A DNA stretch of 64,000 nt from a virus, in IMG/VR virus record IMGVR_UViG_3300017757_000002, positions 1 through 64,000 of that record; one strand, given 5' to 3'. Shown here piece after piece: positions 2,698-46,665 of the stretch. Every line of letters begins with the position of its first letter. The stretch's first letter is position 1. Position numbers and translations under genes: made by a program. The notes beneath the pieces were generated by a model, which saw only the letters and a program-made list of their open reading frames with translations, ran no database searches and was not told the DNA's origin.

Positions 2698-3643
2698 TGA
2701 ACACCTCATCTTCGGGAAGTTGCTTAGTGAAAATAAAATTAACACTTCCTAATTTCTTTCTTGCTTGTCCAGTGATTAACTTCTTTGCATTCTCGATCAT
2801 ATCATCATAGAAATCTAAACAAGTTTTCCTGAGTTCAGGAATTGACTCAGAGTTTGCACCAGTAAATGTAGTGATAACTGTATAGTTAACACCAGTTGAA
2901 ATACCATCAGTCAAATCTCTCATAAGTCTTGCCCATCTATCTGACCTTTTTAAATCCTTTGCACCAGTCAATTTCTTTAAAATGTAAGAAGGGTCTTCGA
3001 CAATATCGATTCCATACTCTTCATAATACTCAGAAATGATTTTCTCATCAGTCATAATTTCAATCGGTACAAAATCAACTCCAGCTGTAATCAATATCTC
3101 TTCAGCAAGTTTTGACCTACTTGGATAATTCATAGGGAGTTGTGGATAATTTCTCTTAATGTAATTACTAACTGCATTCTTAGTTTTAGCTACTTTGTCT
3201 CCTCTCTTAACAATTTGTGCATGTGCAAAAATGAAATCTTCAGGCGTCTGCATAGTCTTGAAGGTGTTTCTCATATTCTCATCATTTGCATATGTGTTTC
3301 TTGCATCATCATCATCGAATTCACAAACTGCAACCCACATGTATTCTTCACCTTCAGCGTCATGTGCATCGAACCTGTGCTTTCCAGCGATAAGATTACC
3401 ATCCTGATCTATCACTGGTGGTTCAAAGTGTTGAGGTAAGTATGTTCCATCCTGAATCATTCTCCTGATTCCATCCCTACCAGCGGTTGTAACACCACTG
3501 ATTCTACCCCAGTTCTGATTGGTTGCATTGATATCAACTAATCTGACATAGTCATATCTGAGAACTCTCATGCCAGGCACAACCTGAACGGGGAACTGTG
3601 ATTGTTCCCCTTTCAATAGATTGACTGGTTTCTTAGTAGTCAT
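2684..3643 (-). CDS. ParB/sulfiredoxin-like domain protein
   Basis: About 319 residues. The N-terminal part has the ParB-like pattern: PPVIDQDGNLIAGKHRFDAH (about residues 76-95), in which GKHR takes the place of the family's G-x-H/R-R box, followed by V.VCEFDDDDAR. The rest is helical and unassigned. ParB-type folds bind nucleotide and sometimes nick DNA, but no partition system is present, so a role in DNA transactions is only inference. The start could be 3649 or 3643; the ATG at 3643 has GAGAG 8 nt upstream. It overlaps the AAA+ gene by 11 nt. Confidence 0.75.
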   Translation of the reverse strand: MTTKKPVNLLKGEQSQFPVQVVPGMRVLRYDYVRLVDINATNQNWGRISGVTTAGRDGIRRMIQDGTYLPQHFEPPVIDQDGNLIAGKHRFDAHDAEGEEYMWVAVCEFDDDDARNTYANDENMRNTFKTMQTPEDFIFAHAQIVKRGDKVAKTKNAVSNYIKRNYPQLPMNYPSRSKLAEEILITAGVDFVPIEIMTDEKIISEYYEEYGIDIVEDPSYILKKLTGAKDLKRSDRWARLMRDLTDGISTGVNYTVITTFTGANSESIPELRKTCLDFYDDMIENAKKLITGQARKKLGSVNFIFTKQLPEDEVFNEIN

Positions 3644-4886
3644 TCTCATCACTCTCAAAGTTAACCTCTTCCGTGAATGTCTCAGAAGACTCTTCCAAGT
3701 GGACACCATCGTCCACTTTGGTGTAGAGATCAAGGATTGAATTCCTAGTCTCTTCATCGAATCTTGAAATGCACATTTCAATAGACTTCATTTTGTCTTT
3801 GAACATTCTGAAAGCATTCACAATGTGAACCAACCTTCTAGTAGTCACGACATCATCAATCCCACCTTCGTAGAAAGTCTTCCTGATTATGTCAGCCCAG
3901 TCAACAAGTTTCTCACAGAAATCATCATCAACTTCACCAGTCAATCCCATTTCTTTTTTAAGAATCGATCTCTCAGTTTTCACTGGAGGATATTCTTGTT
4001 GCATCGTAATTGCAAACCTTTCAAGCATTGCTTCGTTCATGATCTGAGTCCCGATGAACTTACCATCCTCAGAACCTTGACCTTTAGTGTTTGCAGTAGC
4101 AAGGATAGTGAAACCTTCTTTAGGACTCACCCACTCACCAGTTTTCTTGATTAGGTAACCTTTACCTTCAAGAACTGATTGTAAACACATCAATTTGTTA
4201 GAACCCAAGTCAACTTCATCAAGAAGAAGGACAGCTCCTTTCCTCATTGCTTTGACCACTGGGCCTTCTCTGAAAACAATGTTACCATTGACTAGAGTAT
4301 GACCACCCATCAAATCATCTTCATCAGTTTCGATAGTGATATTAACCCTGTAGAGTTCCCTCTTCAATTGGGCACAAGTTTGTTCGATCATCAAAGTCTT
4401 ACCATTTCCTGAAAGACCAGTTACGAAAACTGGGAAGAAAATCTTAGATTTGATGATGTTCTTGACATCCTTGAAATGACCAAACGGCACATAGTTTGAC
4501 ATCTTCTCAGGAATGATTTTGATATCACCATCGAGAAGATTAACAGACTCAGTTGCAGCTGCAACTGGCATGTTAGAAGGGACTGCTTTTGCAGCCACTG
4601 GAGTCACAACCACTGGAGTCTCACCACCGTGAGAATAACCACCGTTGTATCCATTAACAACCTGTTCAAGGTTGAAGAGAACCCCACCCTCGGGATTAGG
4701 TTCTTTAAATGGAAACCTTGAGGATTTAATCCAATATGGAAGATATCCATCAAGTGCTTCTTTGATCTCTGCCCTAGTAAAGGCAGTCTGATTAGGATAC
4801 GATTTTATGAGGGTATCCAGTACCTCACTTTTATCGGGTGTAATGGTAAAATCCTTACCATTTACCGAAATAGTTTTATCAGTCAT
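3633..4886 (-). CDS. cobS: MoxR/CobS-type AAA+ ATPase
   Basis: AAA+ ATPase of the MoxR/CobS group. From the ATG at 4886 the protein has 417 residues, with Walker A GLSGNGKT (about 156-163), Walker B AVLLLDEVDLG (about 215-225), sensor 1 ILATANTKGQG (about 247-257) and an arginine-rich C-terminal lid with VVTTRRLVHI. CobS-like genes are well known in T4-like cyanophages. The large VWA protein two genes upstream is the natural partner, as in MoxR-VWA and CobS-CobT pairs. The ATG at 4886 has AGGAG 7 nt upstream. An in-frame ATGATG at 4919 sits 6 nt after a -10 box and could start a leaderless 428-residue form. Confidence 0.9.
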   Translation of the reverse strand: MTDKTISVNGKDFTITPDKSEVLDTLIKSYPNQTAFTRAEIKEALDGYLPYWIKSSRFPFKEPNPEGGVLFNLEQVVNGYNGGYSHGGETPVVVTPVAAKAVPSNMPVAAATESVNLLDGDIKIIPEKMSNYVPFGHFKDVKNIIKSKIFFPVFVTGLSGNGKTLMIEQTCAQLKRELYRVNITIETDEDDLMGGHTLVNGNIVFREGPVVKAMRKGAVLLLDEVDLGSNKLMCLQSVLEGKGYLIKKTGEWVSPKEGFTILATANTKGQGSEDGKFIGTQIMNEAMLERFAITMQQEYPPVKTERSILKKEMGLTGEVDDDFCEKLVDWADIIRKTFYEGGIDDVVTTRRLVHIVNAFRMFKDKMKSIEMCISRFDEETRNSILDLYTKVDDGVHLEESSETFTEEVNFESDENDY

Positions 4887-4925
4887 AGTCTCTCCTGTAT
4901 TAACTTTATTTCTCATCATGTAGCT

Positions 4926-8277: not shown

Positions 8278-9045
8278 TTAAGAGATTTTAGATAATCTTT
8301 TATATTCTGCCCATCTTTCAGGGTCTTTAGATAGGTCTTCGGTATTATATAACCCACCTTGGACTTGATAGTCTAAGAATTGTCTGATAGTGATCTCGTT
8401 GTGTTCTAGATCATCAACGGGTCTTTCTGTCATAGCTTTATCGATGTCAGCTGTGAACCAACATGCAATGGTGTGTCTTGGAGCTCTTCGAACTTTGAAT
8501 ACTCCATGTCCATGATAGATACCTTGGAATAGAAATCCACTACCTACCTCGGGTTCGACTTGGTGTCCAAATGGATAATAATCTGTAGGTGGAAAATATG
8601 TTTCACCACCATTGTAATCATCATTTAAATATAGAATCACTGTCCATTCTCTAGATGGTGCCTTCTCACCTGTGGCAACCTTTGTTTCGATATTAGGGTC
8701 TTCTCGAACTTCATCATTAGATAGTGTATCCAAGTGTGGGTCTTGTACTCCACCAATATGCCATCGAGTCATAGTTGCCATTTCAGTATGGAAAACTTGT
8801 CCCGTTGCATTGTAGATTTCACCTATACAGTGATTTTGGACTTTTTGGAATAAGAGACGAATGTACTCATTCTTGATATGCATCTTTCTGATGCCCCAAT
8901 AATCTATTAGTGAACCGACTTTTTCTAAGTGTCTATGACTGTTGTGCCACTGAATCAGTGTCTGGCACTCTTCCTTCGTCAGAATCGGAATCACTTTGTG
9001 ATTGTAGACTTTGGAGTTGTCTAGCAATTTCCATTCTTTTTTCAT
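8278..9045 (-). CDS. 2OG-Fe(II) oxygenase, prolyl-4-hydroxylase-like
   Basis: A 255-residue 2-oxoglutarate/Fe(II) dioxygenase. The iron ligands are H104 and D106 (DPHLD) and the distal His in YHGHGVFKV (about 180), with the 2OG-binding Arg in RRAPRHTIACWF. GGETYF and FLFQG also fit the P4H-like fold. The substrate is unknown; such enzymes hydroxylate protein prolines or oxidise other targets and are frequent in marine T4-like phages. The N-terminal KVIPILTKEECQTLI matches the family start, so the 113-nt overlap with the deformylase gene is probably real. Confidence 0.9.
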   Translation of the reverse strand: MKKEWKLLDNSKVYNHKVIPILTKEECQTLIQWHNSHRHLEKVGSLIDYWGIRKMHIKNEYIRLLFQKVQNHCIGEIYNATGQVFHTEMATMTRWHIGGVQDPHLDTLSNDEVREDPNIETKVATGEKAPSREWTVILYLNDDYNGGETYFPPTDYYPFGHQVEPEVGSGFLFQGIYHGHGVFKVRRAPRHTIACWFTADIDKAMTERPVDDLEHNEITIRQFLDYQVQGGLYNTEDLSKDPERWAEYKRLSKIS

Positions 9046-9547
9046 AATCTATTCTCTTTCTCCTCTCTTTTGGTCTAGACTTGATAGCCCTTTCCAATTT
9101 TAACTTAGAGGCTCTTTGAAGGAATATAATTCCATTTAAATGATCTAGTTCGTGTTGAACACATCTAGAACCCATTCCTTCTAATTGTAGTGTATGTCTT
9201 TCTCCATCTGCATCTGAGTATTCTAATTCAATTGCAGAAGGTCTCTTTATCATTAAGTATATATCGGGAAAAGAAAGGCACCCTTCTTTCATTAATTCTG
9301 TTTCTTTGGATAACTTTGTAATCTCAGGATTAAAGAATGCTCTAGTACCACTATCTGCAGTTCTCATGACGAACACTCGATATTGTAAACCTAACTGGTT
9401 TGCAGATAGACCAAGACCACCAAATCGTTCCATGGCTTCTGCCATGTTCTTCTCGATCTCTTTTGGGTCTTCGGGTGGATTTTCAAAATCAAAATCCGTG
9501 GTTGGTTCTCTGAGAACCTTCATTGCTTCTTCAACTAATTGATACAT
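8933..9547 (-). CDS. def: Peptide deformylase
   Basis: Removes N-formyl groups from nascent proteins. All three motifs are present: GLGLSANQLG (44-53; Ser replaces the usual Ala), EGCLSFP (88-94) with the metal-binding Cys, and QHELDH (131-136) with the two metal His and catalytic Glu. The catalytic core ends near residue 180; the last 24 residues, Ser/Asp-rich, lie inside the overlap with the downstream oxygenase gene and may be non-essential. Phage deformylases are known in marine T4-like phages. The ATG overlaps the previous stop as TAATG. Confidence 0.95.
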   Translation of the reverse strand: MYQLVEEAMKVLREPTTDFDFENPPEDPKEIEKNMAEAMERFGGLGLSANQLGLQYRVFVMRTADSGTRAFFNPEITKLSKETELMKEGCLSFPDIYLMIKRPSAIELEYSDADGERHTLQLEGMGSRCVQHELDHLNGIIFLQRASKLKLERAIKSRPKERRKRIDYEKRMEIARQLQSLQSQSDSDSDEGRVPDTDSVAQQS

Positions 9548-15568: not shown

Positions 15569-16976
15569 TTAATTCGAATTGCTTAATTTCATATGAAAAT
15601 CTCTCTTCGTTGTATATATTTATACGATCTTTCAGGTGATTTAGAGTGTAGTTATCACATTGAAGATCATCAGCAATATCGAATAGTCTCATGGAATCTT
15701 TACCATCTACCTTACGAAGGCCTCTACCAATTGATTGTAGATTTCGTATTCTAGATTTAGATGGACTTGCAAAGACAATGTTATCGATTCTTTTTATGTT
15801 TACTCCAGTAGAGAATGTTCCGTATGATGCAAGAATAGTATCTTCTTTATTATTCTCTACAATCTCTCTAACTGATTCTCTATCTTCTGTATCTGTTCCA
15901 CCATACACATAATGTAGGTTACCACCCATATCTGTATTAGACATCATATCAAATAATACTGTACCGTGTTTTTCTACAAATTGAAACAACACCAGTGTAT
16001 TACCTTTCAAGCTTCTAACAAGATTAACAAGGAATAAGTTTCTTGCTTTGTTAGAAACAATGTAATCCATTTCCTCTTGGTAGGTCATTTTCTTTTGTTT
16101 TGTATGACGAAGTATGACACAATCGATATTTAAATTTGCAATTGTTCCTTCATCCATTAACTCTTTTGTGCTTATGACCTTTTTGACTGGGCCGAACATT
16201 CCTTCTAATTGCAATCTATGACATTCAGAACCATCTAGTGTTCCAGTGGTTCCAAAACGGATTGCAGTCTTTTTCATTTTTTCGAGGATTCCTTTGAGGA
16301 CATTTGCTTTGAAGAGGTGGGCTTCGTCTCCGAATACGACTTCGAATGATTGCATGACATCTTTAGGTGCTTTACTAAAACTCTGCCATGTTGATATCGT
16401 AATGTCAGAATCGAATACAGGCTGACCACCATATATTTTGCATATCTCTTTATCGTATCCATAGTCTTTAAAATCCTTTGCCATCTGTTCTACTAAGGAT
16501 GTAGTAGGAACAATGATGATCGTTTTTTTGTTATAGTATCGTGCAAGTAAATAAATGATTAATGATTTACCACTTGCAGTTGGTGAAAGTAAAAGTTGTC
16601 TACCATATTGGACTGCAGTTCTGAATGCATCCATTTGATAGTCTCTAGGTTCAAAAGGTAATCCTAGTTCTTGTATGAAGTTCTCATCAGGCTGTCTTTC
16701 TTTATCTCCTATGATATCGTTTATACCTACAATATCATATCCTCTTTCTCTACAGAACTCATCTACATATGGAAGTAATCCGATATAGATTTTATTTGTT
16801 TTGATTGAGAACAGACGAACCTTACCATCCCAGTATCTATTCTTAACTGAGGGCATGAACTTTGCATTTGGAACAGTGAACGAAAAGAAATCGAACAAGT
16901 CTCTAGAGAGACCATCGTCACATTTAACTTGCATGAAGACCTCATCGACCTTCTTGAGGGTTATTTCAGAGGCCAT
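15555..16976 (-). CDS. uvsW: UvsW-like DNA helicase
   Basis: Superfamily 2 helicase that unwinds R-loops and branched recombination intermediates, switching T4-type phages from origin- to recombination-dependent replication. The N-terminal DNA-binding region (DLFDFFSFTVPNAKF..NRYWDGKVRLF) matches T4 UvsW. Helicase motifs follow: I SPTASGKS (about 127-134), II DEAH (about 218), III GTTGTL (about 240), and VI QSIGRGLRK (about 420). I chose ATG 16976 because it gives the T4-like N-terminus; an ATG at 16988 adds four residues. It overlaps the oxygenase stop by 16 nt. Confidence 0.95.
   Translation of the reverse strand: MASEITLKKVDEVFMQVKCDDGLSRDLFDFFSFTVPNAKFMPSVKNRYWDGKVRLFSIKTNKIYIGLLPYVDEFCRERGYDIVGINDIIGDKERQPDENFIQELGLPFEPRDYQMDAFRTAVQYGRQLLLSPTASGKSLIIYLLARYYNKKTIIIVPTTSLVEQMAKDFKDYGYDKEICKIYGGQPVFDSDITISTWQSFSKAPKDVMQSFEVVFGDEAHLFKANVLKGILEKMKKTAIRFGTTGTLDGSECHRLQLEGMFGPVKKVISTKELMDEGTIANLNIDCVILRHTKQKKMTYQEEMDYIVSNKARNLFLVNLVRSLKGNTLVLFQFVEKHGTVLFDMMSNTDMGGNLHYVYGGTDTEDRESVREIVENNKEDTILASYGTFSTGVNIKRIDNIVFASPSKSRIRNLQSIGRGLRKVDGKDSMRLFDIADDLQCDNYTLNHLKDRINIYNEERFSYEIKQFELNDKP
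15617..15624 (-). promoter_or_regulatory. Late promoter TATAAATA inside UvsW
   Basis: A perfect T4-type late octamer on the minus strand within the 3' end of the UvsW gene, 48 nt upstream of the ATG at 15568. Confidence 0.5.
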
Positions 16977-17650
16977 CCTGTATTCCATACTACCAAGGAC
17001 TTCCTAGTTCCTCTCGTCACGGGTGTGACTTGGTGATGTAACCAAGAAGGAAATACAAGCATTGAACCTAACTCTTTACCACTCATAGGTGCAGAGCAAA
17101 TTAATTCATCTTGTCTGATAACTTGGCCACGACTTCTTAGATTGTCGAATACTTTAGTTTGTTCCATCCATTGAAAGTGTCCACCTTCGTATTCATCAGG
17201 ACATGATAATTGAATTGATGCAGATAGTTTTCTTATTTTACCCCATGCATATGGTTCAGAACCACAATCAGTATGCCATGTATAGAAATCTCCAGTAGGT
17301 CTATCCTCTTGAGCTTCATAAACTGTATACTGCCAGTTTTCCATTTGATCGACCTCGTAGTTCCATCCACTCATTTGATTAGCTTGAATTATACCATCAA
17401 ATATCTTTCGTTTTAAATCTTCTTTGAATTTAGGGTCATCATGATATATCCACTTGTTAGTAGATTGTCTAACACTATTATCTACATTACCTGATTTATT
17501 ATCTCTTGCTTTCTGAGAATCAGAATCTTTACCATCGAACCCAAGGGCCCCTTCCTGTATAGGAAGACTCCTTGCATATCCGTGAAGGTATTCTACCTCA
17601 GTAGGATTAAGAAATTCTGATAGAACACAACAGTAATTATTGTAGACCAT
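16961..17650 (-). CDS. 2OG-Fe(II) oxygenase, PiuC/PKHD-like
   Basis: 229-residue dioxygenase. The catalytic set is HTDCG (about residues 124-128, His and Asp ligands) and FPSWLHHQVTPVTRGTRKS (about 199-217, distal His and 2OG Arg). GHFQWM fits the jelly-roll strand between them. The substrate is unknown. It is placed between UvsY and UvsW, a common site for such genes in marine T4-like phages. The ATG overlaps the UvsY stop as TAATG. Confidence 0.9.
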   Translation of the reverse strand: MVYNNYCCVLSEFLNPTEVEYLHGYARSLPIQEGALGFDGKDSDSQKARDNKSGNVDNSVRQSTNKWIYHDDPKFKEDLKRKIFDGIIQANQMSGWNYEVDQMENWQYTVYEAQEDRPTGDFYTWHTDCGSEPYAWGKIRKLSASIQLSCPDEYEGGHFQWMEQTKVFDNLRSRGQVIRQDELICSAPMSGKELGSMLVFPSWLHHQVTPVTRGTRKSLVVWNTGWPLK

Positions 17651-29803: not shown

Positions 29804-30853
29804 TTAACTATCACCAGCCGTATCCTCACTATATGTAGAGGGAGCTCCGTCATCATAAAAAGTCACCGTTTCAGCAACCACAAATGTATCACTTGGGTCA
29901 ACTGAACCAACAAACTTAAGTGTAGTACCAGCATCGATAGTAATATTACCACTCAATACTATTGATAGTTTATCACTTGCAACACTACTAACTGTAGGAT
30001 TGGTTGATAAATTTGTACCAAACACTTCATCGTTTGCACTTATCTTACTATTTATTGCACTTGGAAAGGACACTGTTGAACTGTTCGATACTGCATTAGC
30101 AACTTCACCGAATGCTGGTTCGTAGTGTTTCACTTCTTTGACCAGTCCTGAGTTTTGTATCTCAGTTGAAGTAAATCCAGCTTGAACATTATCATTAATG
30201 TAATCTCTTTCGATAACATTCTTAATAACCTCACCTGTATAAACTGGGCCGAAGAAGTATGTCTTCATAGTAAATTCTAGTGTATATTCGATAACTCGTC
30301 TTTCTTCGAATGCACCTTCATACATATCTTCCATATTGGTAGATGTTAATATGACTGGTACATCTCTTACTTCACTCATTGCATCTACCATTTTCATTGC
30401 AACGGTATACTCAGGTTGGAAGTAAGGAAGTATTTGTTCTAAAATCTGTATACCATCTATAACATTCTTTGCAAGTATTGACATTGAAAAGTTAATGTTA
30501 TATGGAGCTGGTTGATACTGGAATCCTCTCTTTCCTGTATCTGCAGTTTCTACTGTTGTCTTAGTAGTTCTGATTAATTTGTTTTGTTGTCTTGTAGGGT
30601 CGTATTCTAATCCAGTCATTTCAAATGCAATACGAGGTAAAGAGATCGAGGTAACACTACCATCCCTTGCCTTTGCATCGTCTTGTAACCTTAAGAGAAA
30701 CTTTTGTTTAGGCCCATAACTTATGGGTACTTTTTGTGATGTGAGTACAGTCCCATCAGCTTTAGTTTTCTTGATGTCAATATTATTGAACAATGTACCA
30801 AAGACTGATATTGATCTCTTGATTGTTTCGTTATAGAAATAAGTTCCGAACAT
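29804..30853 (-). CDS. 15: Tail sheath terminator/stabiliser gp15
   Basis: Caps the contractile tail and joins it to the neck. The N-terminus (MFGTYFYNETIKRSISVFGT, LFNNIDIKK) and the central ILEQILPYFQPEYTVAMKM closely match T4 gp15. The protein is 349 residues against 272 in T4; the extra part is a Ser/Thr-rich beta-prone C-terminus (about 255-349) not present in T4. The ATG overlaps the acyl carrier protein stop as TAATG. Confidence 0.92.
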   Translation of the reverse strand: MFGTYFYNETIKRSISVFGTLFNNIDIKKTKADGTVLTSQKVPISYGPKQKFLLRLQDDAKARDGSVTSISLPRIAFEMTGLEYDPTRQQNKLIRTTKTTVETADTGKRGFQYQPAPYNINFSMSILAKNVIDGIQILEQILPYFQPEYTVAMKMVDAMSEVRDVPVILTSTNMEDMYEGAFEERRVIEYTLEFTMKTYFFGPVYTGEVIKNVIERDYINDNVQAGFTSTEIQNSGLVKEVKHYEPAFGEVANAVSNSSTVSFPSAINSKISANDEVFGTNLSTNPTVSSVASDKLSIVLSGNITIDAGTTLKFVGSVDPSDTFVVAETVTFYDDGAPSTYSEDTAGDS

Positions 30854-31068
30854 TATGAGTTGTCCTCAATATACTGTTTCAAGTCTGCAACTGTATGTAA
30901 TGTTTCTGCATCATCATCAGGAACTTCTATATCAAATTCTTTTTCAATCTCCATGACCAATTCAACAATATTTAATGAGTCTGCACCTAAATCTTTTACA
31001 AAATTAGATTCATCTTTTACTGCGTCTTGGTCACAACCAATCGTTTCTGCTATTATTTTTTCTATCAT
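30853..31068 (-). CDS. acpP: Acyl carrier protein
   Basis: A 71-residue protein with the full ACP signature: LGADSLNIVELVMEIEKEF, with Ser 31 as the 4'-phosphopantetheine attachment site, then acidic helix III (EVPDDDAETLHTVADL). Host ACP carries acyl groups in fatty acid and lipid A synthesis. I start it at 31068, just after the gp14 stop, rather than at 31098, because the protein then has the typical ACP length. It sits between neck genes gp14 and gp15 with TAATG coupling to gp15. Its job in a virion module is unknown. Confidence 0.93.
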   Translation of the reverse strand: MIEKIIAETIGCDQDAVKDESNFVKDLGADSLNIVELVMEIEKEFDIEVPDDDAETLHTVADLKQYIEDNS

Positions 31069-31069
31069 T

Positions 31070-31927
31070 TTATGGTTCACCGAATGGATTAACTTCACTA
31101 AAGTCTAGATATGAACTATCCTTATCTTCAAATTCTTTATTCTGAGCAGAAGCTAGATTATGGAATGATTGAACATCCACGATACTTCCAATAGCTCTTG
31201 CAGTTGTAGATGATGCACCTGTTAGTGTATCTCCAACTTGTAGTGTCTTAGTGTTATCCTTAATTGTAAGTTTGTTTGCATTTGGTTGCCATAGTACAAC
31301 CTCTCCAACTGTATGTGTAACTGAATCAATTACAGTAGTTAAATTCTCTCCATGAGTATAGTTTCCAGTACCAGTCATGGTCAATTCGATTGTGTAAGCT
31401 TGATCTGCTTCTACCAAGTCTGCACTTGTACCAGTATCGAAATCTTCTCCTGAGTATTCGAACAATGAACATCTCATCTTGAATACAAACATCTTTCCTA
31501 ACTGGAAGAATGGGTCTTGGTCTTCTACGAATCTGATTTCAAATAATGAACCTGTAAGTGGGAAGTAAATTAAATCCCCTTCGTTAGGTCTTAGTGATAC
31601 TGCAAGGTTAGAATCTAGGGAAATGAATCTCTCCCATGTTCTTAAAGATATAATGAATGTTGCTTCCTCTTGTATCTGTACACCGAACTTAGAAACAAGG
31701 TCTCCGTCTCCTTCGAACCCTTCTGTATTTTCGAGATACATTTCAACCGAATAGGCGTCACCGAATGTGGATTGTACATCCTCAGTAAATATAGTATCCT
31801 CTTCTACAATCGTTCTAGGTAGATATAAGAGATCGTGTCCGTAGAATCGTAATGATTCAACGACTAAGTCCTCATAGAGGTGCTGTTCTGTTTTTACAGC
31901 ATGATTAAAGTAAACATTCGTAGGCAT
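31070..31927 (-). CDS. 14: Neck protein gp14
   Basis: Head completion/neck protein joining portal and tail. The 285-residue protein matches T4 gp14 (256) in VYFNHAVKTEQHLYEDLVVESLRF-type N-terminal residues, then FGVQIQEEATFIIS, EGDLIYFPLTGSLFEIRFVE and DPFFQLGKMFVFKM, followed by FEYSGEDF. The last 80 residues are a beta-prone tail longer than in T4. It follows gp13 with a 4-nt gap. Confidence 0.92.
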   Translation of the reverse strand: MPTNVYFNHAVKTEQHLYEDLVVESLRFYGHDLLYLPRTIVEEDTIFTEDVQSTFGDAYSVEMYLENTEGFEGDGDLVSKFGVQIQEEATFIISLRTWERFISLDSNLAVSLRPNEGDLIYFPLTGSLFEIRFVEDQDPFFQLGKMFVFKMRCSLFEYSGEDFDTGTSADLVEADQAYTIELTMTGTGNYTHGENLTTVIDSVTHTVGEVVLWQPNANKLTIKDNTKTLQVGDTLTGASSTTARAIGSIVDVQSFHNLASAQNKEFEDKDSSYLDFSEVNPFGEP

Positions 31928-33067: not shown

Positions 33068-33748
33068 TTATCTCTTTACTTCGCCTTCTTCTATATCGAA
33101 TTTGTTCCAGTTTTCATCTATAGGGATTGCTGTCTCTTGAGGTGACCCACCTAACCTCTCATTATTCATATTAAATGCAACACTGTATCTATCATTACCT
33201 GATGCATTGGGTTCAACCATATGTAGTAGACCACTAGGGAAACAAAGAAGTGTTCCTGAGATAGGTCTTATACAATGATTCTCCCTAAACCTAGATGATG
33301 CTGGGAAGTCACTTAATACTTTAGGGTCTGTATTGATTGCAACGAAATCTCCTTCGTCACCTTCTGCATTAATGTATAATGCACCACTCCACCAACATCC
33401 ATTGTGACCGTGTGGTTTATTCCATGCACCTCTATCATTTATATTTGCCCAACAATTACCCATTCTAACTTGGAATTTTGATGTACACACTCCACTAAAA
33501 GGAAGTATCTCTTGGTTGAATTTCTCTTTAATGACTCTCATCATTTTTACCCATGCAGGCCTAGATTCACAACCATCATTCGATTGCCAACCAGTATATG
33601 CATTAGAAATCTGTCTTCCCACTGGGTCTTTCATTCTCATTGCATCCATATCTGCTTTTAATTCATCCAAATATGTTTGAGTAACTAACCCTTCTTCCAA
33701 CAAGTTATACTCGAAAAGTAATGTTGGAAATAATAATCTAACTGACAT
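33068..33748 (-). CDS. 2OG-Fe(II) oxygenase-like protein
   Basis: 226 residues. A double-stranded beta-helix dioxygenase is indicated by KPHGHNGCWWSGALYIN (about 111-127) and CFPSGLLHMVEPN..NDRYSVAFNMN (about 168-194), giving the distal His and Arg. The usual second ligand Asp is replaced in this class by H-x-H/N, so catalytic iron binding is less certain. It is the first of three genes (33068-35381) of similar kind, ending about 18 nt before the coiled-coil membrane gene. Confidence 0.82.
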   Translation of the reverse strand: MSVRLLFPTLLFEYNLLEEGLVTQTYLDELKADMDAMRMKDPVGRQISNAYTGWQSNDGCESRPAWVKMMRVIKEKFNQEILPFSGVCTSKFQVRMGNCWANINDRGAWNKPHGHNGCWWSGALYINAEGDEGDFVAINTDPKVLSDFPASSRFRENHCIRPISGTLLCFPSGLLHMVEPNASGNDRYSVAFNMNNERLGGSPQETAIPIDENWNKFDIEEGEVKR

Positions 33749-33751
33749 AAT

Positions 33752-34678
33752 CTAATCTCTATCTATTTTCTTTGACTCCGAACCGTCCCAATTTAAATCT
33801 GTCAACTCTCGTTGTTTATCATTAAAGTCCATTTCCAGCTGTTCTTCTGATCTGTGCATTGGACATTCAGGTGGTGGGTTTACTTCTTCGGGTTTATCAA
33901 AGTATTTACTCTTTGGTTTCCAAATTTTAGCATTCCTATAACCACCGATGTTGATCTTCTCATTGGGTGTTCCATCTGCATCTACCAATTCCAAACTCCT
34001 TTGCCATTTTTGCATTGACTTCTCATGTGTTCCATGATTCTTATGCCAATCTGAGTGTTCTTGAAAAAAATATGTTGATGTCCATTCTTCCCTCTTAAAT
34101 GGGAACACTTGTACCAGTGGAGTACCAGCTGGTATAACAAATGAATGGTTTACTTTAGGATAGAATATGATCTGTGCATTGTCCAAATTAACATTGAACT
34201 CATCAGTATCAATCACTCCTTGCCAACATGCAAAGTATTTATTCTGAAACAGGAAAGGGTCTAAAAATAAAACAGAATAGCCCGGCGGGGTTTTCATATT
34301 CCAGTAAGATGATATTTTAAATGCATCTTTAACTGGGCCATCTTCTCCCATATACTCTATAGAATCTTGCATTTGAGCAGACGGGTGTGATCTAGAATGT
34401 ACTGGAATTTCTTCATCCGTAGTGAATCTTTCTCCACTAGGCCAGTTCCAATCTAATCCATTTCTAATTGGGATATCAACACTTGAAACAATATAATATC
34501 CCATTGTTAACCAGTCTTGCATTGAAGGACAAGACCTTATTGTTTGTGCAACACGACCACGATGGTCTACACGAATCTTTTGTTTCTTCCACCATTCAGG
34601 TTGCATAGATTTAGCTGCAACTGGTCTGAACATTTCAAACGATGGTTTATTATATGTTCTAAACTCAATTGTAGGCAT
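33752..34678 (-). CDS. Conserved-type protein of unknown function, DUF6065-like
   Basis: 308 residues. Visible features are SMQPEWWKKQK near the N-terminus, an aromatic-rich middle (FKISSYWNMKTPPGYSVLFL, DPFLFQNKYFACWQGVIDTD), and FVIPAGTPLVQVFPFKREEW (about 178-197), which reads like a cupin or beta-sandwich fold. DUF6065 is a possible family name from memory only. It overlaps the upstream oxygenase gene by 14 nt and lies between two dioxygenases, so a linked pathway is likely. Confidence 0.75.
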   Translation of the reverse strand: MPTIEFRTYNKPSFEMFRPVAAKSMQPEWWKKQKIRVDHRGRVAQTIRSCPSMQDWLTMGYYIVSSVDIPIRNGLDWNWPSGERFTTDEEIPVHSRSHPSAQMQDSIEYMGEDGPVKDAFKISSYWNMKTPPGYSVLFLDPFLFQNKYFACWQGVIDTDEFNVNLDNAQIIFYPKVNHSFVIPAGTPLVQVFPFKREEWTSTYFFQEHSDWHKNHGTHEKSMQKWQRSLELVDADGTPNEKINIGGYRNAKIWKPKSKYFDKPEEVNPPPECPMHRSEEQLEMDFNDKQRELTDLNWDGSESKKIDRD

Positions 34679-35381
34679 ATCTATCTTCCTTATTTAATAA
34701 CTCGATCTCGTCTCCTCTAACGACAATTGATCTTCTATCTATATATCGTGCATCTTCTGATGGAGCTTCTGCACCATGTTGTATTCTTCCATCAAACATT
34801 AAGAGACGATTTGGTTTGAAATCAACGGAACCTATTTCGACATCATCCATTTGTTCTAAGATTCCACCTTCTCTATTTTCACTATAGAATCTTAACTTAC
34901 CACCCCAGTGTGGATTCCAAAATCTATTTGTATAATAAAGAAAGGAAAGATTCCATTCATCATCTTTCTGACAATCTGCATGACATGTTCCATGTTGACC
35001 ATGGGTTTGAGAGTTTGCACCAGCATATTGAAACCTTACCCATGCAAAACCAAAGTCTGTTTCTAGTTTTCTATTAAACCATCTAATTAAATAATTAGAA
35101 TGTCCTGATGCACCATTTAGATATCCATCATTTTGGTTTTCACCTACTATAAAAGAACATCCCCATAAAGAATGATTAGGAAGTCCTCCTCGATTTGGGC
35201 CATGATATTCGACTTGATTAGTCTTTTGCCATGAACACATATCTAAATGTTTATTCATGGCTTTATGAAGTGAAGACTCTAGATAATCATCTATAACATA
35301 GACTGTATTACCCAAAGGCATGTCTTCGATGTAAAAAGGGGACTCAATGTGTTCGACATTGATCGAGTCGAATGAGGGCAT
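34665..35381 (-). CDS. 2OG-Fe(II) oxygenase
   Basis: 238 residues. Iron ligands are HGTCHADCQ (about 130-138; H-x-D) and the distal His in MFDGRIQHGAEAPSEDARYIDRRS-type residues (about 194-216), with Arg for 2OG. LSFLYYTNRFWNPHWGGKL is the central strand pair. The substrate is unknown. It overlaps the DUF6065-like gene by 14 nt. Confidence 0.85.
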   Translation of the reverse strand: MPSFDSINVEHIESPFYIEDMPLGNTVYVIDDYLESSLHKAMNKHLDMCSWQKTNQVEYHGPNRGGLPNHSLWGCSFIVGENQNDGYLNGASGHSNYLIRWFNRKLETDFGFAWVRFQYAGANSQTHGQHGTCHADCQKDDEWNLSFLYYTNRFWNPHWGGKLRFYSENREGGILEQMDDVEIGSVDFKPNRLLMFDGRIQHGAEAPSEDARYIDRRSIVVRGDEIELLNKEDRYAYN

Positions 35382-37559: not shown

Positions 37560-38252
37560 TTAAGAGGAAATTGGAGTCGCAGGCCACTGTTGTGTAACCA
37601 CACCATCCCATCTTGGTTCAGGAGTTTGTCCCTGTCTTGCATATGTAAACGGAGACCTATGGTCATAGTTGTTCTGAGTATTTGCAATAACCTGATAAGT
37701 AAATGGACTTCTATGGTCATAAGACTGCTGTGTTTCACCTTGTCTTGCATATGTGAATGGAGACTGGTGAATGTATGTCTGAGGTACTCGACCCTGAGTC
37801 ATGTATGTAAACGGACTCTGTGTATCTCTAATATTTGGTTCCTGTGCAGCTGCAATATACGGTGATTGTCTGTCCTTAATCGCAGGTTGTTGTCCAGCTC
37901 TAATATTAGGTTCTTGTCCTACTGCAGTATATGGATACGGTTGTTGAGCAGATGCAATATACGGATAAGGTTGTTGTGCATTTGCTGGATAGGTAAATGG
38001 ACTCTGAGCATTTGCTGGGTAAGTAAATGGATTCTGAGCATTATGCGTAAACGGTGACTGATAAGCAGCTGGATAAGTAAACGGATTCTGTGCATTATGA
38101 GTGAACGGATTCTGATAGTTTGCTGGGTATGTGAACGGGTTCTGTGCGTTATAAGTGAACGGATTCTGATAATTCGCAGGATATGTAAATGGATTCTGCG
38201 CGTTATAAGTAAACGGTTGTTGGGCACTAGCTGGATACGGTTGTTGAGCCAT
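37560..38252 (-). CDS. Pro/Phe/Thr/Tyr repeat protein A
   Basis: A 230-residue protein made almost wholly of short repeats. The first half alternates a 10-residue unit (QNPFTYPANY) and an 8-residue unit (QNPFTYNA), so the true period is 18 residues or 54 nt. Later units degenerate (QQPYPYIASA, QEPNIRAG, RSPFTYARQG). There is no signal peptide or membrane segment. With its position among fibre genes, a fibrous virion adhesin or linker is inferred. The ATG of the gene below overlaps its upstream neighbour as TAATG. Confidence 0.8.
   Translation of the reverse strand: MAQQPYPASAQQPFTYNAQNPFTYPANYQNPFTYNAQNPFTYPANYQNPFTHNAQNPFTYPAAYQSPFTHNAQNPFTYPANAQSPFTYPANAQQPYPYIASAQQPYPYTAVGQEPNIRAGQQPAIKDRQSPYIAAAQEPNIRDTQSPFTYMTQGRVPQTYIHQSPFTYARQGETQQSYDHRSPFTYQVIANTQNNYDHRSPFTYARQGQTPEPRWDGVVTQQWPATPISS
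37560..38252 (-). repeat. 54-nt (18-aa) tandem repeat tract, protein A
   Basis: Within the coding region, 54-nt units recur in imperfect tandem, most regular between about 37980 and 38230 (for example GTAAACGGATTCTG-like words on the plus strand). The same vocabulary occurs at 38750-39380 and 45360-46610, so homologous recombination among the three tracts is possible. Confidence 0.75.
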
Positions 38253-39538
38253 TACTTCTTCTCTCCGTTATGAACTAGAACACCATTAACAAAATAGTTT
38301 TCATTACCTTCTACCAAGACAATGTTGTAGGTAGTTTGTAGTTCTTCTTGTTTAGTTATACTTTCAACGATCACTCCATGTTCTCCGAAATAGAATAGTT
38401 CGTCACCCACTTCAAATTCACCCTCTGCACATTCAAAGTCTGCAATTCCAGCTTCAACTTCTACTTTCCATGCATCTTCGTTAATGTATCTCCAACCTCT
38501 TGCTGTAGATACTGGGTGACCACCTGATATTTCAATGTGGTTACCATTTGAAAGTTTAACATTATATAGTTGTATATCTTCTCTTGGTTCCATCATTGCA
38601 CCAACTTCTCTAGATTCTAGTAAGTTAGTTTCAAAGTTAAATGATAATACAAAGTCTCCAGCTTGAACTTCACTGATAGGCATAAGTCTATTATCACCCA
38701 TAAGAATAAGCATATCGGAACTGAAGCAACCACCACCACCGCCTGGTATAAACACTGGTGTTCTTGCTTGATAAGTGAACGGGTTTCTTGCACTTGCAAT
38801 GAACGGTTGTCTTGTTGGTGCTTGATAAGTCGCAGGTTGTCTCGCAGATGCAATGAACGGTTGTCTCGCAGGTGCTTGATATGTTGCTGGTTGTCTTGCA
38901 TTTGCAATAAATGGTTGTCTTGCTGGTGCTTGATATGTATTCGGTTGTCTTGCATTTGCAATAAAAGGTTGTCGAGCAGGAGCCTGATATGTAAAAGGTT
39001 GTCTTGCTGGTGCCTGATATGTAAATGGTGTTCTACCAGTTCTATTATATGTGAAAGGTGATTGACCTTGTCGTGCATATGTGAACGGTGACCTATGATC
39101 GTATGTAAACGGTGATCTTATTGAATATGTATTAGGTTGTCTACTATCGTATGTAAACGGTGACCTATGTTGATAGGTATTCGGTTGTCTTCCCTGTGCC
39201 TGATAAGTATAAGAAATCTGTCTTGATCTTTGGTTAGGTTCCTGACCATTTGCTTGATAAGGATAAGGAACAATGGTTTGTCTTATATTTGGTTCTTGAG
39301 CATTTGCAATGTAAGGATATGAAACAATAGTTTGTCTAATGTTTGGTTCCTGTCCAGTTGCAATGTAAGGGTAAGGAATTTGCGTTGCTTCTTGTCCTGA
39401 TGCATCATTCCATCCATCGGGAGTCTTGATATAAATCTGATCTACTGCTTTCCAAGTTGTACTGCCTGTTTTTACCCAAGCACCTTGAGTTGCATTCCAA
39501 CCCGAAGGGGTTTTAACCTTTTGGTTACCTGACGCCAT
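38252..39538 (-). CDS. Repeat protein B with C-terminal Hint (intein-like) domain
   Basis: 428 residues in three parts. Residues 8-50 hold two VKTPSGWN-type modules. Residues about 55-262 are PFTY-type repeats (RQPFTYQAPA/RQPFIANA, 10+8 residues). After a GGGGG linker, residues 271-424 form a Hint domain: CFSSDMLILMGDNRLMPISE with the first Cys, VQAGDFVLSF, SGGHPVSTARGW and a C-terminal YFVNGVLVHN, followed by GEKK. No Cys/Ser/Thr follows the terminal HN, so full splicing is unlikely; self-cleavage at Cys271 or Asn424 is inferred. Confidence 0.88.
   Translation of the reverse strand: MASGNQKVKTPSGWNATQGAWVKTGSTTWKAVDQIYIKTPDGWNDASGQEATQIPYPYIATGQEPNIRQTIVSYPYIANAQEPNIRQTIVPYPYQANGQEPNQRSRQISYTYQAQGRQPNTYQHRSPFTYDSRQPNTYSIRSPFTYDHRSPFTYARQGQSPFTYNRTGRTPFTYQAPARQPFTYQAPARQPFIANARQPNTYQAPARQPFIANARQPATYQAPARQPFIASARQPATYQAPTRQPFIASARNPFTYQARTPVFIPGGGGGCFSSDMLILMGDNRLMPISEVQAGDFVLSFNFETNLLESREVGAMMEPREDIQLYNVKLSNGNHIEISGGHPVSTARGWRYINEDAWKVEVEAGIADFECAEGEFEVGDELFYFGEHGVIVESITKQEELQTTYNIVLVEGNENYFVNGVLVHNGEKK
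38750..39380 (-). repeat. Repeat tract in protein B
   Basis: Coding repeats of 10+8 residues built on RQPFTYQAPA and RQPFIANA/RQPATYQAPA, and further RSPFTYDS/YDHRSPFTYARQG units. They share words with proteins A and C. Confidence 0.7.
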
Positions 39539-45207: not shown

Positions 45208-45215
45208 TATTTATC
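45208..45215 (-). promoter_or_regulatory. Late promoter GATAAATA
   Basis: GATAAATA, GTAAT, then the ATG at 45202. The predicted +1 is the start codon. Confidence 0.65.
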
Positions 45216-46665
45216 CTTTTAAGAACTGTGCATTAGGCACTGCATCATGTATTTTTTCTGCAGTTCCACTATCATTCACATGAACAGTCTGTGCTTTTTT
45301 AACTGTACCACCATCGTTTACAAAGACACCTTTAACTTTTGCAAGAGGCCCGATGGGTCTTGTAGTTGAATAATTCACCTGATATGTGAAAGGTGATCTA
45401 TGATCGTAAGTGTAAGTATAACCTTCCTGATATGTACTAGGTGATCTTGCATCTGCAATATAAGGTTGTTGTGCATTCACTGGATGTGGATAAGTGAATG
45501 GACTTTGTTTATCCCTAATTGTAGGTTGTTGTGCATCTGCAGTATAAGGATATGCTTGTTGTATATTACTAGGTTGTCTATAATCGTAAGTGAAAGGATT
45601 CCTTGCATTCCTCTCATTACTCTCCTGTGCATTTGCAATATAAGGATATGGTTGTTGTATATCTCTAATATTGGGTTGTTGTGCATTCACATCTGTCCTA
45701 GGATATGTAAACGGTGATCTATGATCGTAAGCAACCTGTCTAATATGTTGATAGATAGATGGTTGTTGTAAGGGTTGTCTATAAGGTTGTCTTGCATTAC
45801 CAACATTAGACAATGAAATACTAGGTTGTCTATATGGACTTCGTGATGAAACAGGCTGTCTTGCTGGTTGATTGGTTACTGGCTGCCTGTAAGGAAAAGG
45901 TTCACCAATCTGTTGGTTCCATACAGTAGCATGGGTTTGACCTGTAACTGTAAATGGACTCTGTGAACTTACTGGTTGTTGTTTACTGGTCTGCACATTA
46001 GATGCATTTGCTTGAAACGCATATGTTTGTGGTGTTATATACGGCCCTTGAACTTGAGTAGATTGAGGTTGTCTAAAATTCAACCATGAATTCAACTCAG
46101 GTTCATAGTTGGAAAAGGGTTGTTGGTTAGAACCTATGTACGGCCCTTGAACACCAACTTGTCTATTACCAATATGAGGTTCTTGTATAGGAGTTCGAGC
46201 ATCAACTGTATATGATGTTTGTCTATTTACATTTACATCATTGTAAGACTGTTGTTTAATAGTCGGTTGTTGTTTATTCGCTTGGAACTGATATGTACTA
46301 GGTGACTGATGTTGATATGTAAATGGCGATTGACCTTGTCTATTATATGTAAACGGACTTTGTACCTGATATATGGCTGGTTGTTGTCCATCTCTAATTG
46401 TTGGATGTTGATATGTAAATGGAGATCGACCTTGTCTAATATATGTAAACGGAGATCGATGATCGTAAATTACAGGTTGTCTAGCATTTTTCTGATCTTG
46501 ATATGTAAAAGGTTGTCTGTTCTGATAAGTGAACGGACTCTGAGCATTTGCTGGATATGTTCCATCAATGTTCCTGATAACTGGTTGTTGAGCGTTTGCT
46601 GGTACTTGACCCTGATAGGGTTGTTGAAAAGTCGACCCTGTGTTTATATAAATTTCGTCAGCCAT
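45211..46665 (-). CDS. Pro/Phe/Thr/Tyr repeat protein C
   Basis: 484 residues. Most of the protein is the same repeat vocabulary as proteins A and B (QSPFTYNRQG, YDHRSPFTY, QQPYPYIANA, RQPYRQP). The C-terminal 50 residues are different: VKGVFVNDGGTVKKAQTVHV, NDSGTAEKIHD, a pair of the modules seen at the N-terminus of protein B in related form. It lies next to fibre genes, about 2 nt after the 46667-47887 gene. Function unknown; a fibrous virion part is inferred. Confidence 0.8.
   Translation of the reverse strand: MADEIYINTGSTFQQPYQGQVPANAQQPVIRNIDGTYPANAQSPFTYQNRQPFTYQDQKNARQPVIYDHRSPFTYIRQGRSPFTYQHPTIRDGQQPAIYQVQSPFTYNRQGQSPFTYQHQSPSTYQFQANKQQPTIKQQSYNDVNVNRQTSYTVDARTPIQEPHIGNRQVGVQGPYIGSNQQPFSNYEPELNSWLNFRQPQSTQVQGPYITPQTYAFQANASNVQTSKQQPVSSQSPFTVTGQTHATVWNQQIGEPFPYRQPVTNQPARQPVSSRSPYRQPSISLSNVGNARQPYRQPLQQPSIYQHIRQVAYDHRSPFTYPRTDVNAQQPNIRDIQQPYPYIANAQESNERNARNPFTYDYRQPSNIQQAYPYTADAQQPTIRDKQSPFTYPHPVNAQQPYIADARSPSTYQEGYTYTYDHRSPFTYQVNYSTTRPIGPLAKVKGVFVNDGGTVKKAQTVHVNDSGTAEKIHDAVPNAQFLKG
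45360..46610 (-). repeat. Repeat tract in protein C
   Basis: Imperfect coding repeats of about 8-10 residues with the words RSPFTY, QSPFTY, RQPxx and QQPxI. The tract is less regular than in protein A but clearly of the same family. Confidence 0.7.

Follow-up and report, generated by a model that had tools for sequence, protein, structure and literature searches.

What does an intein-like (Hint) domain do at the end of a repeat protein encoded in the tail-fibre/baseplate gene cluster of a phage, where only four residues follow it? The question is raised by a gene in the 64,000-nt window analysed here, which is part of an IMG/VR record of 69,839 bases. The terminase of the record is nearest to that of phage C48C1 (listed under Kyanoviridae, 55% identity) and then to those of cyanophages (~45%), thus pointing to a T4-like phage as the source; the virus may be termed marine on the basis of its kinship to marine phages, not of sample data. 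Other minus-strand genes of the window include an acyl-carrier-protein-like gene at 30853-31098 (PP-binding, E 1e-16) amid neck and tail genes, genes for a peptide deformylase (8933-9547) and a CbbQ/MoxR-type AAA ATPase (3633-4919), and four 2OG-Fe(II) oxygenase genes (33068-33748, 34665-35381, 8278-9045 and 16961-17650), two of which belong to a conserved cluster, directly downstream of genes for Pro-rich repeat proteins, and might hydroxylate prolines of the repeats.

Architecture of the repeat protein and fold of its Hint domain

The gene extends over 38252..39538 on the minus strand, stop codon included, as an ATG-started open reading frame of 428 residues with syntenic orthologues in IMG/VR; no comparable reading frame is present on the plus strand of this interval. 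All parts described below lie on the minus strand. Residues 1-45 (39404..39538; QKVKTPSGWN...) form a conserved N-terminal module, kept in 79 open reading frames at the locus and weakly predicted to contain small β-strands. Residues 53-262 (38753..39382) comprise short repeats of ~8-10 residues rich in Pro, Gln and Tyr (30, 30 and 20, respectively, in 210 residues), which are predicted to be disordered (pLDDT under 50). The first-pass annotation had described the product as a repeat adhesin; the repeats are evident, but nothing was found that supports an adhesin. The same repeat vocabulary (QSPFTY, QPYPY, YPANAQ) occurs in three minus-strand products of the window (37560-38252, 38252-39538 and 45211-46665), and a Hint domain is present only in that at 38252-39538. 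The repeats run into a Gly-rich junction, FIPGGGGG (residues 263-270; 38729..38752), which places Gly at position -1 and has poly-Gly counterparts before Cys1 in relatives. The Hint domain spans residues 271-424 (38267..38728) from Cys1 to Asn, and the C-extein consists of GEKK only (residues 425-428; 38255..38266).

The location of the Hint domain at residues 271-424, proposed from the first reading of the DNA, is borne out by profile, sequence and fold comparisons. Pfam searches with the 428-residue protein matched Intein_splicing (E 1.8e-8; 34.7 bits, just below the cut-off of 35.8), Hint (1.5e-4) and Vint (9e-4), and NCBIfam intein models matched at 4e-6 to 2e-5. A PDB sequence search returned a Tetrahymena BIL domain and DnaB inteins. 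The AlphaFold2 model of the domain, built on an alignment of 40 sequences, displays a confident Hint fold (pLDDT 89.9, pTM 0.86), whereas the remainder of the whole-protein model is of low confidence, with the repeats predicted to be disordered. Structural comparison with VIA-align identified BIL2 of Tetrahymena thermophila BUBL1 (6y75, 6tmm) as the closest fold (Z 22.0, 2.0 Å over 148 residues, 24% identity), followed by the Ssp/Npu DnaB and gp41-1 inteins (Z ~19.5-20; ~19.7 for the DnaB mini-inteins), the C. thermocellum BIL domain 2lwy (18.4) and Hedgehog (17.0).

Conservation of the catalytic residues

The candidate catalytic residues comprise Cys271 (Cys1, the block A nucleophile; codon 38726..38728), His341 of the block B motif SGGHP (38516..38518) and His423-Asn424, with which block G ends in VLVHN (38267..38272). 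These residues had been pointed out at the outset as a Cys1, a His in an HPVS block and a terminal VHN, together with the absence of a +1 nucleophile; each assignment holds, and the +1 residue is Gly425. Across 40 phage relatives that have diverged to 22-53% identity with the window domain, the invariant columns are exactly Cys1, the block B His-Pro and the terminal His-Asn. By contrast, the +1 residue varies in the window's family among G, M, F, I, L, R, Y, A and K and is never C, S or T, exemplified by L, M, F and F in L100, L028, L117 and L120. A control was provided by the internal helicase and terminase inteins returned by a first scan of viral contigs with a single Hint sequence, which have Cys at +1 in 19/19 final block G motifs. 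The helicase inteins of L005-L019 (e.g. L005:4597-6834, plus strand), with Cys at +1, are apparently split by a long stretch of low complexity inserted between blocks B and F.

Values of dN/dS range from 0.12 to 0.38 across 13 Hint pairs. By this sequence measure the domain is under purifying selection, which argues that it works, and the conservation of the catalytic residues argues that activity is kept, irrespective of which product is selected. It is thus highly improbable that the domain is a catalytically inert relic, retained to cap the disordered repeats with a folded unit, since both the low dN/dS and the restriction of invariance to the catalytic residues in 40 relatives speak against a dead module.

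Relationship to known Hint domains

From its sequence and modelled structure, the domain fits the type-A bacterial-intein-like (BIL) class (reportedly the subject of Amitai et al. 2003 and Dassa et al. 2004), namely a mini-intein that lacks both a homing endonuclease and a +1 nucleophile. With type-A BIL domains, including that of C. thermocellum (2lwy, a fold match only), it has in common the Hint fold with Cys1 and block B His, the C-terminal His-Asn followed by a residue other than C, S or T, and a position in the variable region of a non-conserved protein, here one with disordered variable repeats and a Gly-rich tail. It differs in residing in a tail protein of a lytic-type phage, in the poly-Gly tract near the C-terminus and in the existence of Hint-less alleles at the same site, type-A BIL domains having been described from bacterial (and ciliate) proteins. 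Similarity to BUBL1 BIL2, the best structural match, extends to Cys1 and the terminal Asn. BUBL loci fuse BIL domains to Gly-ended ubiquitin-like modules, whereas the host protein in the window is an unrelated repeat protein that has no ubiquitin-like fold. Type-A BIL domains, which end in His-Asn and lack a +1 nucleophile, mainly undergo cleavage and, to a lesser extent, splice through a thioester, Asn cyclisation and aminolysis (PMC4031507). BIL domains are located in variable regions of non-conserved bacterial proteins (PMC7765530) and give chiefly cleaved products, and one mutation can make them efficient splicers (PMC7664689).

Other classes agree less well. Class 1 mini-inteins (Ssp/Npu DnaB, gp41-1) share the fold, Cys1, a TxxH-type block B, His-Asn and the occurrence of intein-less alleles, whose empty sites are nearly precise in a sister family and looser in the window's own. 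Assignment to class 1 was rejected because the +1 residue is Gly425 instead of Cys, Ser or Thr and the site is the Gly-rich tail of a repeat protein, not a conserved site in the active centre of a conserved enzyme; an endonuclease is also lacking. Type-B BIL domains lack block G, which is present here and ends in VLVHN. The first-pass annotation had proposed a BIL-like or Hedgehog-type domain. The fold and the His-Asn uphold the former, while the Hedgehog Hog domain (1at0) shares the Hint fold (Z 17.0), Cys1 thioester chemistry and the location in the C-terminal part of the protein but not the block G His-Asn, and the window protein ends four residues after Asn424, leaving no room for a sterol-recognition region. 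A pretoxin HINT (PT-HINT) domain was likewise discarded, since only GEKK follows the domain, with no toxin module, and PF07591 scored 14.3 bits against a cut-off of 27.7. Proteins of uncultured Caudovirales annotated in BFVD as 'Hint domain containing' (A0A6J5M6E1; A0A6J5QMR4, named collagen repeat) share the fold and in some cases repeat- or fibre-type names. They were found only as automatic annotations, and no description of poly-Gly sites or empty alleles was found in the literature searched. Nor did the open-access literature searched yield an account of phage tail proteins with a Hint domain lodged in a poly-Gly tract; the phage inteins in the literature examined reside in terminase, ribonucleotide reductase and dCTP deaminase.

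Presence and absence of the domain at one locus

At least 80 loci related to the gene were collected from IMG/VR, L071 and L099 being excluded as incomplete sequences, and synteny extends over ~15 kb where tested. Some of these loci encode the Hint domain, others end in a Gly-rich tail and some further ones in other C-terminal extensions. The domain is present at the same locus in 22 of 59 distinct related backbones, and a tree of the downstream neighbour gene for these 59 implies six changes of presence, at least five of them forced by starred branches. The window protein has the layout RTPVFIPGGGGG-Hint-GEKK, whereas the Hint-less L064, with structural neighbours 82-94% identical to those of the window, ends in RLPIQLPSGGGNPQIK, L033 in RTPVQIPSGGGPGHQQK and L040 in QPPGGEKE, so that Hint-less relatives terminate in HQQK, QIK and GGEKE. 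These tails match only loosely, being Gly-rich and ended by Lys or Arg, and the cleanest empty-site pairs come from other protein families. As judged from these alignments, the domain behaves as an insertion in a Gly-rich, Lys/Arg-ended tail.

The patchy distribution bears on whether the domain could be a functional ligase, in which a nucleophile of a partner (a lysine, another fibre or the host surface) would attack the Gly270 thioester and attach the repeat region covalently, by analogy with cholesterol on Hedgehog or with the proposal for ciliate BUBL proteins. Such a role would accord with the nearest fold being a BUBL BIL domain, with Gly-Gly ends that resemble ubiquitin-like tails and with the selection that maintains the domain. 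Nevertheless, we regard it as very unlikely: among relatives that share their neighbours, presence at the one site has changed at least five times, which suits a dispensable element, the block G His and Asn are invariant yet unneeded for N-terminal ligation alone, and neither a partner domain nor a region resembling a sterol-binding one follows the Hint domain.

Related domains in glycine tracts of other phage tail proteins

The search in other phages recommended in the first-pass annotation located the domain in several unrelated tail proteins, encoded on metagenomic contigs. The initial remark that it is unexpected in a T4-like fibre cluster is therefore partly wrong, given these proteins and its presence in 22 of 59 backbones at the locus itself. 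The shared architecture consists of a poly-Gly tract, a domain running from CysPhe to HisAsn and a short, mostly basic tail. In a hub-like tail protein (phrog_2048) the Hint allele reads ...GYGYGGGGGGGGGG/CFVADT...VLVHN/KRDNGRDNRAVLRR (slashes mark the domain boundaries) and the Hint-less L185 ...GYGYGGGGGGGGGGGGGDRGGGGGRRAVLRR; a second group of this family repeats the pattern. A gpI-like tail-assembly protein (phrog_32) presents a nearly precise empty site: the DNA of L359, with the domain, and L360, without it, is 96.6% identical on the side that ends immediately before the Cys1 codon and 96.0% identical on the far side, counted from the fourth base past the Asn codon. Between these points L359 has a 453-bp Cys1-Asn segment plus AAA (Lys at +1) where L360 has GGCGGCGGT, a difference of one additional Lys codon and three fewer Gly codons outside the element. 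In gpJ-like proteins of up to ~2,070 residues, so labelled from position and sequence, the element splits GGGGGGG/.../GGGGGKSGGGGG near the N-terminus, and one Hint-less relative, L492, reads IIQGAKGGKGGGQEP. Taking out the Cys1-Asn segment restores a Gly-rich tract in all four groups (two hub-like, gpI-like and gpJ-like). A poly-Gly pattern scan selects for glycine, so the matches listed give no measure of enrichment; both hub-like groups and the gpI-like cases came from a search that was not selected for glycine.

Variants of this arrangement were also recorded. Tandem Hint domains occur at the C-terminus of phage proteins L134, L137, L138 (214-2958, plus strand), L142, L148 and L150, often ending HisAsn-Lys-stop. 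Tail-fibre-like proteins of L248, L261, L263, L270, L292 and L299 contain poly-Gly-CysPhe Hint starts with a degenerate block G (ending KNVNILNA) and are perhaps capable of N-terminal cleavage only. In L257, where the domain begins at residue 28, RGAGGGGG precedes it and recurs a few residues after it (TGSGEGRLTTVIRGAGGGGGKGGGG), resembling a duplication that flanks an insertion site.

All relatives with the poly-Gly Hint architecture derive from metagenomic contigs. Isolate phages, searched with the Hint domain, with the whole protein and with the Hint domains of two relatives, yielded only helicase, polymerase and terminase inteins or weak matches, and no tail-protein Hint; a search for near-matching DNA found none, and no relative was found in bacterial and archaeal genomes. 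The location of the module in glycine runs of unrelated tail proteins, together with its absence from close relatives, suggests that the finished protein no longer contains it, the module having cut itself out. The first-pass annotation had proposed release of the repeat region, its attachment to a partner or exposure of a new C-terminus at assembly as possible roles. As far as can be read from the sequences, the presence/absence pattern favours self-removal, by which the Gly-rich C-terminus would be restored to its Hint-less form, over a device dedicated to attachment.

Movement of the domain between backbones

In the neighbour-gene tree the window groups with the Hint-less L030-L033, L064 and L069; the closest backbones to it that do bear the domain are L116 (the L021 contig), L119 (the L028 contig) and L100. 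The Hint tree, in contrast, groups the window with L072 and L353 (support 99/98), and the L072 backbone lies elsewhere in the backbone tree. Constraining the window Hint to group with those of L021, L028 and L100 was rejected (AU p 0.008; the group was picked on the basis of the backbone tree, with a first Hint tree already known). The domain thus groups with those of distant backbones, not of its own kin, and has moved by horizontal exchange. In a tree of all phage Hint domains, 28 of 29 rows of the T4-like repeat family fall into one clade, so the pattern is best accounted for by a single entry into the gene family, followed by loss and exchange. As the deep forks of the cross-family tree are poorly resolved, the conflict is claimed within the family only and not as jumps between protein families.

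This conflict, along with the nearly precise empty sites and in-frame C-exteins of the hub-like and gpI-like proteins, could be taken to indicate efficient splicing, such that mobile poly-Gly inteins ligate their exteins almost quantitatively despite lacking a +1 nucleophile and leave the host protein the same with or without the element. The gpJ-like proteins, in which a C-extein of up to ~1,900 residues follows just 20-30 N-terminal residues, point the same way. Splicing of this efficiency appears rather unlikely, however, because the type-A BIL domains studied give mainly cleaved products (PMC4031507; PMC7664689), every site seen is a tail, leader or linker, in which the protein could tolerate losing its C-extein, and the 96%-identical L359/L360 pair is too recent to reveal selection on the tail.

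A probable self-excising domain in a glycine-rich tail

The reading preferred here, to which we assign a probability of roughly 65% on sequence and model evidence, is that a type-A BIL domain occupies the Gly-rich tail of a fast-evolving, disordered tail-cluster protein and excises itself via a Cys271 thioester and Asn424 cyclisation. After translation, Cys271 would attack the carbonyl of Gly270, an N-S acyl shift generating a thioester, and Asn424 would cyclise, cutting the bond to Gly425. The thioester would then either be hydrolysed, which would release the repeat protein with GGGGG at its end, or be attacked by the amino group freed on GEKK, a splicing event giving the end GGGGGGEKK. With either resolution the mature protein would resemble the C-terminus of Hint-less orthologues. 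The occurrence of these reactions is inferred, as is the balance between cleavage and splicing. An element that splices poorly would survive only at sites where the C-extein can be lost without harm, which may explain its location in poly-Gly tails and linkers, and the runs of GGN codons might aid recombination between alleles.

It is tentatively suggested, at less than even odds, that these domains form a class of their own: mobile inteins that carry no endonuclease and are adapted to the poly-Gly tracts of phage tail proteins. Such elements would pass from allele to allele, perhaps through recombination at GGN runs, would accept any residue at +1 and would leave either through splicing that needs no nucleophile or through cleavage that does no harm. 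Most known phage inteins reside in conserved enzymes of DNA metabolism and packaging, where failed splicing would be lethal. For intein relatives that lack the residue for canonical splicing, a poly-Gly tail, leader or linker in a structural protein would keep the cost of failure low, a testable answer to how BIL domains without a +1 nucleophile persist. These domains may also yield new tools for splicing or for making C-terminal thioesters, with Gly at the junctions. The lengths of such tail proteins in the virion may differ from those of their open reading frames. If such a class exists, marine-phage tail tips, baseplate hubs, gpI- and gpJ-like proteins and T4-like repeat proteins would all pass through a self-excising precursor.
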